IMG/VR virus record: IMGVR_UViG_3300010153_000040
Coordinates: 1-34,890 of that record
From: a virus
Direction: 5' to 3' (one strand)
DNA: 34,890 bases
The position numbers and the translations under genes were made by a program. Below are positions 2,931-13,237 of the stretch, piece after piece. The notes below the pieces were generated by a model. The model made no database searches, was not told the DNA's origin, and saw nothing but the letters and a program-made list of their open reading frames with translations. Positions within the stretch are counted from its first letter, which is position 1. Every line of letters begins with the position of its first letter.

Positions 2931-3131
2931 ATGTTTGTTAATAAAAAAGTTAAACAAGAAAGATTAGATACCTGTAAAAGCTGTAGTTTTTACAGAAATT
3001 TTTTAATGTTAAAAAAACCTAAGTGGGAATGGGGAGCAAGATGTGGTAAATGTAGTTGTTTCTTAGATGCAAAAACAACTCTTACTAAAGATTTTTACGG
3101 AGAATGCCCTTTAGGTAAATGGAAAGAGTAA
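2931..3131 (+). CDS. Small Cys-rich zinc-ribbon-like phage protein
   Basis: This 66-residue protein has a CKSC pair near the N-terminus, a CGKCSC cluster in the middle and a final ECPLGKW. Such four-to-six cysteine proteins ending in CPLGKW are common as uncharacterised genes in marine phages. Zinc binding is an inference from the cysteine spacing. It begins three bases after the tape measure stop and overlaps the next gene by 13 bases, so it belongs to the same transcript. No function is known to me. Confidence 0.75.
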   Translation: MFVNKKVKQERLDTCKSCSFYRNFLMLKKPKWEWGARCGKCSCFLDAKTTLTKDFYGECPLGKWKE

Positions 3132-9784: not shown

Positions 9785-9934
9785 ATGACAAAAGATACAG
9801 CTCAGGTAGTAATGGCAAATGGAGGGGCGAGCGCTTTAACCTTAACAGAATGCAATCAAATATTGACTTTAATTTCAATATCTTTAGCGATTGCATTTAC
9901 AATATATAAATTTTACAAATTAAAAAATAAATAA
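9785..9934 (+). CDS. Small one-TM protein, holin-like
   Basis: This 49-residue ORF fills the gap between two virion genes, with an A-rich leader before its ATG and one base between its stop and the next ATG. It begins MTKDTAQVVMANGGASALTL and continues to a single membrane segment at residues 26-43 (ILTLISISLAIAFTIYKF), then a basic tail KLKNK. The N-out, C-basic-in layout and its position ahead of the lysis-type genes suggest a small holin or other membrane disruptor. Proteins of this length and pattern recur in marine phages as I recall. Confidence 0.65.
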   Translation: MTKDTAQVVMANGGASALTLTECNQILTLISISLAIAFTIYKFYKLKNK

Positions 9935-10520: not shown

Positions 10521-10991
10521 ATGAAATTAAGAGTAGTACGATTTAGTAGTGAAGAAGATTCTACAAATGGACTTTTGTTTGATGTAACGGATGGAGAGAA
10601 GTTCTTATGTTATACTTTAGAAGATGAGTACAGACCTATGGAAGAAAAGGTTATAACAGAAACTAGAATACCAGAAGGCACATATAGAATAACATTAAGA
10701 ACAGTTGGTGGAATACATAATAAATATAAAAAAAGGTTCTCTGATATACATAAGGGAACTTTATGGGTAAGAGATGTTCCGAACTTTGAGTATATACTTA
10801 TACATTGCGGTAATACTGATGAGCACACTTCTGGTTGTTTGCTTATTGGAGATACTCAAGTTAATAATCAGATTGAAAAAGATGGTTACATAGGAAAATC
10901 TACACAAGCTTACACTAGAATATATCCTGCTATAGCACAAGCTTTAGAGGATGGTAAAGAAGTAACAATAGAGTATATTAATTTAAAATAA
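10521..10991 (+). CDS. DUF5675-family protein, candidate cell-wall enzyme
   Basis: This 156-residue protein matches the DUF5675 pattern: FLCYTLEDEYRP near residues 28-39, ETRIPEGTYRITL at 47-59, and FEYILIHCGNTDEHTSGCLL at 89-108. The His95-Cys-Gly-Asn and Ser-Gly-Cys106 pairing recalls the SHGC-type active site of L,D-transpeptidases, so a peptidoglycan role is plausible but unproven. The ATG at 10521 was chosen because the upstream extension to a TTG overlaps the tiny gene at 10391. No other endolysin is evident in the window, which makes this the leading lysis-enzyme candidate. Confidence 0.7.
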   Translation: MKLRVVRFSSEEDSTNGLLFDVTDGEKFLCYTLEDEYRPMEEKVITETRIPEGTYRITLRTVGGIHNKYKKRFSDIHKGTLWVRDVPNFEYILIHCGNTDEHTSGCLLIGDTQVNNQIEKDGYIGKSTQAYTRIYPAIAQALEDGKEVTIEYINLK

Positions 10992-10999
10992 TAAATAAA

Positions 11000-11386
11000 A
11001 TGAAAAAGGTAATTTTAACATTAGCAGTAGTTTTTACAACATTAGCTTCGTCAGCTCAGTTTATAGCAGTGAGCGATGTTTCTCAGCCATCAGACGATGA
11101 GAGTTGGGGAGTAAGTAATTTCACTAATAGTATTGGTGTTGGTTATGAGGTAAATGACAAATTAACAATTGGATTAAGAAAAAATGGAGATGACTATGAT
11201 GTCTTTGGTAGATTTAATGTAAGTGGAGGTATTTTTGTATCAGCTAAATCTTCAACAGATGAGTTTGATTTAGATAATGTAGAATTAAGTTTAGGATATT
11301 CCCTACAAGTATGGGAAAAGTTATATGTAGAACCGTCTTACAGTAAAGATGGAGAATTTAAAGTAGGAGCGGCTATCCGTTTCTAA
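11000..11386 (+). CDS. Secreted outer-membrane beta-barrel-like protein
   Basis: This 128-residue protein has a clear signal peptide: MKK, a hydrophobic core ILTLAVVFTTL, then ASSAQF with cleavage after Ala. The mature part alternates polar and hydrophobic residues in short strands (SIGVGYEVNDKLTIGLR, YDVFGRFNVSGGIFVSAK, VELSLGYSLQVWEKLYVEPS) and ends VGAAIRF. A C-terminal Phe on a terminal strand is the outer-membrane barrel signature. At about 108 mature residues it is small for a full barrel, perhaps a 6-8 strand or partial barrel. It lies in the lysis-type cluster. It could help breach the outer membrane at lysis or block superinfection. Confidence 0.65.
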   Translation: MKKVILTLAVVFTTLASSAQFIAVSDVSQPSDDESWGVSNFTNSIGVGYEVNDKLTIGLRKNGDDYDVFGRFNVSGGIFVSAKSSTDEFDLDNVELSLGYSLQVWEKLYVEPSYSKDGEFKVGAAIRF

Positions 11387-11412
11387 ATATTAATAATTAA
11401 AAATTAAATAAA

Positions 11413-11590: not shown

Positions 11591-11890
11591 ATGGGTATTA
11601 AATTTAAAAACCCGTTTACAAAATGGATAGGGTCTGCTGTTGCGGACAGCGCCATAAAACCAATTACAGAATTAGTAAAAGCTGTATTAGAGTTATTTAA
11701 GGATAACAAAGGTAAGTGGTCTAGTAAAAGAACTGTATCAGGTGTAATTGTATTAGCTGCTTCAGCTGATATAACAGCACATGGTATAACAACAAATAAT
11801 TTAATACTAACAGGGATAGGTGTATTACCTTTAATTTTTTCAGCGTTTGAAAAAAATCCTGTTTGTGGCAATGATTGTTGTAAAAAATAG
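11591..11890 (+). CDS. Small membrane protein with Cys-rich end, holin-family candidate
   Basis: This 99-residue protein has an amphipathic N-terminus (FKNPFTKWIGSAVADSAIKPITELVKAVLELF). Two hydrophobic segments follow at about 51-63 (VSGVIVLAASADI) and 70-85 (LILTGIGVLPLIFSAF), then a CGNDCCKK end. It is the third small membrane protein in the cluster. A role as holin, pinholin or spanin-like partner is inferred from topology and location. Stacked hairpins begin at its stop codon. Confidence 0.6.
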   Translation: MGIKFKNPFTKWIGSAVADSAIKPITELVKAVLELFKDNKGKWSSKRTVSGVIVLAASADITAHGITTNNLILTGIGVLPLIFSAFEKNPVCGNDCCKK

Positions 11891-11928: not shown

Positions 11929-11960
11929 ATTTCTATGTTTTCAAGTAGTTTTTTTGGGTT

Positions 11961-11995
11961 GTGAAAGGGGGGTAGTTCCCCCTTTTACGTTTTTA
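11961..11995 (+). terminator. Rho-independent terminator closing the virion/lysis operon
   Basis: GTGAAAGGGGG (11961-11971) pairs with CCCCCTTTTAC (11978-11988), with one G-U pair and a six-base loop. A T-run follows. It separates the lysis cluster from the DNA-metabolism genes. Confidence 0.85.
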
Positions 11996-13153: not shown

Positions 13154-13204
13154 ACCCTTATATATAAAGATAAGGATAAAGATAAGGATAAAGATAAGGA
13201 TAAA
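13154..13204 (+). repeat. Tandem 12-base repeat and long direct repeat of 24303-24327
   Basis: ATAAAGATAAGG occurs three times head to tail at 13164-13199, with a partial fourth copy to 13204. Bases 13154-13178 are identical to 24303-24327 (25 bases), and a shorter version of the CCCTTATATATAAA part recurs at 21025-21039. The purine-rich units read as AAGGATAAAGAT on the + strand. The function is unknown; a protein-binding array or recombination remnant is possible. Confidence 0.8.
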
Positions 13205-13237
13205 TAACAAAGAAATTTAAAAAAACTTTCTAAATAA

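Follow-up and report, generated by a model that had tools for sequence, protein, structure and literature searches.

The window, by which we mean the whole stretch of DNA analyzed here, is a contig of 34,890 bp from an uncultured virus in IMG/VR. A sequence-only reading had placed an open reading frame (ORF) at 11000 to 11386, between a DUF5675 gene and two small membrane proteins, and we found the ORF at exactly those coordinates and with those neighbors. The ORF starts 8 bp past the DUF5675 stop codon, and the gene for a 58-amino-acid (58-aa) membrane protein begins 26 bp beyond its 3' end. The features of the locus are as follows.

9785 to 9934, plus strand: 49-aa single-helix membrane protein, upstream in the same cassette
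10521 to 10991, plus strand: DUF5675 gene, 156 aa (PF18925, E value of 2.8e-25; phrog_1501), an endolysin candidate
11000 to 11386, plus strand: predicted outer-membrane barrel gene, 128 aa, with a signal peptide at residues 1 to 20, eight predicted strands (residues 21-28, 44-50, 55-62, 65-73, 78-85, 95-105, 108-115, and 120-127), and the beta-signal KVGAAIRF
11000 to 11412, plus strand: all-or-none segment, missing from loci L174 to L180
11413 to 11589, plus strand: 58-aa membrane protein with two hydrophobic segments, holin-like
11591 to 11890, plus strand: 99-aa protein with a hydrophobic C-terminal half, holin-like, the last gene of the run
11960 to 11989, plus strand: strong intrinsic-terminator-like hairpin (13-bp stem, T tail) that closes the gene run

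The ORF is a real gene, as judged from its relatives, which span 98 down to 29% identity, and from its dN/dS of ~0.21 in the window clade, with a minimum of 0.12 in the strands and a maximum of 0.32 in the predicted outer loops. The protein begins with MKKVILTLAVVFTTLASSAQ, continues after the cleavage site with FIAVSD, and ends in EFKVGAAIRF. We called the signal peptide by eye and from conservation; it is of the Bacteroidota type, with cleavage between ASSAQ and F, and an SAQ cleavage site is typical of Bacteroidota. Outside IMG/VR, most of the terminases closest to that of the window belong to phages of flavobacteria, among them Croceibacter phage P2559Y and Cellulophaga phages, and from these relatives we infer a flavobacterial host.

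The DUF5675 protein has an invariant HCGNTDEHxxGCLL motif and is common in marine phages, with 278 relatives found in one scan. The only notable PDB match to its model was DpaA (8ikr), an enzyme with the L,D-transpeptidase fold (E value of 0.043 and probability of 0.84, from Foldseek alone). A peptidoglycan enzyme with an L,D-transpeptidase-like fold is a plausible, rather than a firmly shown, identity for this protein. A promoter scan of the window gave nothing above shuffled sequences, and the position of the barrel gene in the operon suggests late expression. A short tandem repeat of the GATAAG type lies at 13165 to 13205, between an exonuclease-like gene and the next gene.

Sequence and predicted fold of the barrel protein

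The signal peptide, alternating strands, and C-terminal Phe that had suggested an outer-membrane barrel were borne out at levels above chance. Hydrophobic alternation over the eight modeled strands scored 3.80 against a shuffle mean of 1.78, and none of 20,000 shuffles reached the observed value. A beta-signal (polar-x-G-x-x-hydrophobic-x-hydrophobic) was present in 61 of 66 family members versus 3 of 1,203 other ORFs from the same loci; when Ser was permitted for Gly, these counts became 66/66 and 7/1,203. The beta-signal of the window protein fits K-x-G-x-x-I-x-F. The mature protein is strongly acidic (net charge of -9; family mean of -11.8), and its loops are short (2 to 15 residues) and remain fairly conserved even between phages that differ greatly. 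The window protein had no significant match in Pfam, PHROGs, NCBIfam, or PDB sequences, and it did not match the Pfam family OMP_b-brl (PF13505), which 34 of 54 family members matched individually (best E value of 4.7e-5).

The structure prediction that the sequence-only reading had called for was run with AlphaFold on a 54-sequence alignment, and it returned one N-terminal helix, corresponding to the signal peptide, and eight strands (mean pLDDT of 78, pTM of 0.65). VIA-align matched this model to OmpA (Z score of 11.9), OprF (11.8), designed transmembrane barrels (11.5), and NspA (10.8). Soluble barrels, both designed and avidin-like, also matched it at Z scores of 10 to 12, so the fold alone is no proof of membrane insertion; strand alternation and the beta-signal would settle this point better than the fold does. 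Based on the sequence and the predicted fold together, the gene very probably encodes an eight-stranded barrel, with a predicted location in the outer membrane.

The earlier statement that phage genes of this kind are rare was wrong. Phage-borne outer-membrane barrels are a known kind of gene, usually accessory, and lambda Lom, the cyanophage family PF24653, and many predicted phage barrels are examples. Lambda carries its own outer-membrane barrel, whose position we take to be that of lom. Lambda Lom and the bacterial OmpX/OprF-like proteins of the OMP_b-brl type share the fold, the signal peptide, and the beta-signal with the window barrel. However, the window barrel has much shorter loops and no match to the profile, and a pattern scan of bacterial genomes found no close relative of it.

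The cyanophage barrel Phage_OMP (PF24653; DUF680/PhCOG173) was found in five of six cyanophages taken from a published list of spanin-less phages: P-SSM2 (twice), P-SSM4, Syn1, Syn9, and Syn33. It was absent when searched for in S-PM2, T4, T7, lambda, P2559Y, and phi17:1, and its profile did not match the window record. In P-SSM2 (NC_006883), two tandem copies occupy 188757 to 189737, directly upstream of pstS. The gene sits in cyanophages among the host-takeover genes talC, psbA, pstS, and 2OG-oxygenase. It has been linked to the phosphate response (PMC6224464, PMC9146016), 13 different mutations that inactivate it arose as phages evolved on a single Synechococcus host (PMC6224464), and the DUF680 protein was detected by mass spectrometry in a virion preparation (PMC9146016). 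Like the window barrel, PF24653 is a small, accessory barrel of marine phages with a signal-peptide-like N terminus and a terminal aromatic residue. It differs in having no detectable sequence relation to the window barrel, other hosts, other gene neighbors, and no two-helix partner (described below) found in a search of phage records. Homology between the two is unsupported (hhalign probability of 3.4%), and 4 of the 54 barrel family members match PF24653, weakly.

Presence and absence of the barrel gene in close relatives

We compared the cassette across phages by way of the relatives of DUF5675. At nine loci, including the window, the order is DUF5675, barrel, 58-aa gene, and 99-aa gene. 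At seven others (L174 to L180), the 58-aa gene follows DUF5675 after ~12 bp with no barrel between them. The DUF5675 proteins of these seven loci are 94 to 97% identical to that of the window, and the rest of the cassette is the same, save in L178, where the stretch ends before the 99-aa gene could show. In trees of DUF5675 and of the genes downstream, which have moderate branch support, carriers and noncarriers are mixed together, so the barrel has been gained or lost at least twice. Most other genes of the window recur in two near-complete noncarrier genomes (35.9 and 38.6 kb), which have no barrel anywhere and no evident replacement outer-membrane protein or lipoprotein gene. Because the cassette is intact without the barrel in close relatives and near-complete genomes lack it, the barrel is dispensable in the lineage of the window, and we can state with good confidence that it is accessory (moron-like) cargo there.

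The flanks of the barrel gene share an ~28-bp direct repeat. We rejected this repeat as an insertion scar, since the shared sequence is what this phage generally carries at translation starts (the pair ranks 7th among 990 start pairs), and we claim no mechanism of gain or loss from it.

Distribution of the family and its two-helix partner

Two IMG/VR scans for relatives of the barrel returned 13 and at least 87 loci, on contigs of up to 210 kb. The window protein and several family members had no significant match in 50,697 deposited phage records. Bacterial genome contigs scanned with alignments of the barrel and of its partner gave pattern matches and no confirmed relative, by a method that detects fairly close relatives only. 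Every member of the barrel family that we saw is on an uncultured viral contig, and many of these phages are from the ocean.

A gene for a two-helix membrane protein directly adjoins the barrel gene at 63 of 84 loci (62 of 82 distinct contigs), many of which are related, so that these counts are of nonindependent events. This partner protein has ~74 aa (62 to 85 aa) and two hydrophobic helices, and its gene lies within ~140 bp of the barrel gene on the same strand, mostly downstream and in nine loci upstream. The neighbor lists that we inspected placed the pair in about ten different contexts. A reverse search from the partner found at least 428 IMG/VR loci, and the barrel adjoins the partner in 78 of the best 80; one of the two barrel-less loci among these 80 is a contig end. 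Adjacency kept through a reversal of order and a change of context is strong evidence that the barrel and the partner function jointly. The partner follows the pattern MENVIKYVTGFFGGL...GNGGFVGL...FFVKK, at loci including L032, L034, L043, L071, and L144, and we found no family match for it and no match in the deposited phage records. It is unlikely to be a sole holin, given that four pair-carrying records (L034, L009, L144, and L166) encode another holin.

The partner was not found in the window or in 11 related records. In the window clade, the 58-aa gene holds the partner's slot, and we claim no homology between the two. Elsewhere, a DUF5675 gene is directly followed by the two-helix partner at positions 1501 to 2700 of L251, a 9.6-kb record in which no barrel was found, and the partner occurs at positions 3001 to 3222 of L133, a 41-kb record without a detectable barrel gene.

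Possible functions of the barrel

The sequence-only reading had proposed that the protein could help rupture the outer membrane at lysis in place of spanins or could change the cell surface to exclude other phages. For the first of these roles, the barrel would act with the neighboring holin-like proteins, or elsewhere with the two-helix partner, to weaken or open the outer membrane at the end of infection, either as an accessory factor or as a spanin substitute. The setting noted by that reading stands: the gene lies between a peptidoglycan-enzyme-like gene and holin-like genes ahead of a strong terminator. We sought lipobox ORFs in the window and found none, so no classical o- or u-spanin was found there, consistent with the remark that no spanins are obvious; the SAQ/F cleavage site of the barrel itself has no cysteine. 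In five other records (L034, L069, L010, L013, and L059), the barrel has an amidase, lysozyme, or peptidase domain within ~4 kb on the same strand. A spanin survey counted 91 of 677 phages without spanins, including Croceibacter phages P2559Y/S and marine T4-like cyanophages, and raised the possibility of an outer-membrane protein in the role of an o-spanin (PMC6139136). Most relatives of the window barrel also resemble Rz/Rz1 spanins in encoding an outer-membrane protein and a predicted inner-membrane protein side by side. Unlike spanins, the barrel and its partner include no lipoprotein or periplasm-spanning coiled coil, and the sequence of neither suggests a periplasmic portion that could reach across the periplasm. 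Moreover, relatives with the same cassette do without the barrel and have no obvious replacement, the barrel of a 210-kb record lies tens of kilobases away from lysozyme and amidase, the holin of two other large records is distant from the barrel-partner pair, and the four pair-carrying records named above encode a separate holin. The sites empty of the barrel in close relatives argue against a required spanin substitute, which is unlikely in the lineage of the window, and a lysis helper of any kind is a role that we consider rather unlikely.

A benefit to the phage through altered permeability, charge, or vesiculation of the outer membrane, in the manner of an auxiliary metabolic gene, is a possibility that we also doubt. 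The strong acidity of the mature barrel is consistent with it, as are the genes that accompany PF24653 in cyanophages and its link to the phosphate response. However, eight-stranded barrels are usually too narrow to form pores, PF24653 has no detectable sequence relation to the window barrel, and the window gene sits amid structural and lysis-like genes rather than metabolic ones. The protein might instead be a virion component or a soluble periplasmic barrel, and not an integral outer-membrane protein. The matches of soluble barrels to the model and the DUF680 protein in a virion preparation point in this direction, but the signal peptide and beta-signal in almost all family members and the outer-membrane Pfam matches in 34 of 54 argue against it, and we regard this explanation as improbable.

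We favor surface modification over lysis as the predicted function, whether for superinfection exclusion or for protection of progeny from debris, with receptor masking or exclusion as the leading mechanism, which we hold tentatively. The minimal eight-stranded barrel, whose gene is accessory cargo with the endolysin-like DUF5675 gene on one side and holin-like genes on the other in what is presumably a marine flavobacterial phage, would probably leave the cytoplasm through Sec late in infection and be placed in the outer membrane by the BAM machinery of the host. There, it would most likely remodel the surface of the infected cell; its acidic outer loops may mask or perturb a phage receptor, such that the cell, and later its debris, would stop capturing related phages or the phage's own progeny. 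The barrels of most other family phages would act with the adjacently encoded two-helix protein, predicted to lie in the inner membrane.

We prefer receptor masking to lysis because accessory presence, a surface location, and faster-changing loops fit it better. By analogy, a surface role is supported by the placement of PF24653 among host-takeover genes, by its inactivation under selection on one host, and by T5 Llp and Cor, small phage lipoproteins that block receptors at the outer membrane (PMC9586334). As is proposed for the window barrel, Llp and Cor are small exported phage proteins that act at the outer membrane. Several points count against a surface role: Llp and Cor are lipoproteins rather than barrels, exclusion proteins are typically expressed early (PMC9586334), short and fairly conserved loops are not obviously needed by a receptor-specific blocker, and the gene is placed in a lysis-like cassette.

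A bolder reading, which we consider speculative and unlikely, would have the barrel work with the two-helix protein as a single phage machine that involves both membranes. It might be an outer-membrane-barrel counterpart of spanins, serving marine phages that lack them, or an exclusion system that works at both membranes, and the clade of the window would have kept the barrel with a substitute partner. With more than 400 loci carrying the partner, such a machine would be widespread in the ocean.

Bacteroidota phages are abundant in the sea, and few are cultured. The barrel bears on how spanin-less phages deal with the outer membrane, and natural pairs of near-identical phages with and without the gene offer a way to test its role. 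We see it as more probably an optional tool that alters the host surface than an essential part of lysis. The conserved pair of barrel and two-helix genes, which our searches of deposited phage records did not turn up, would represent an unstudied way in which phages handle or exploit the host envelope.
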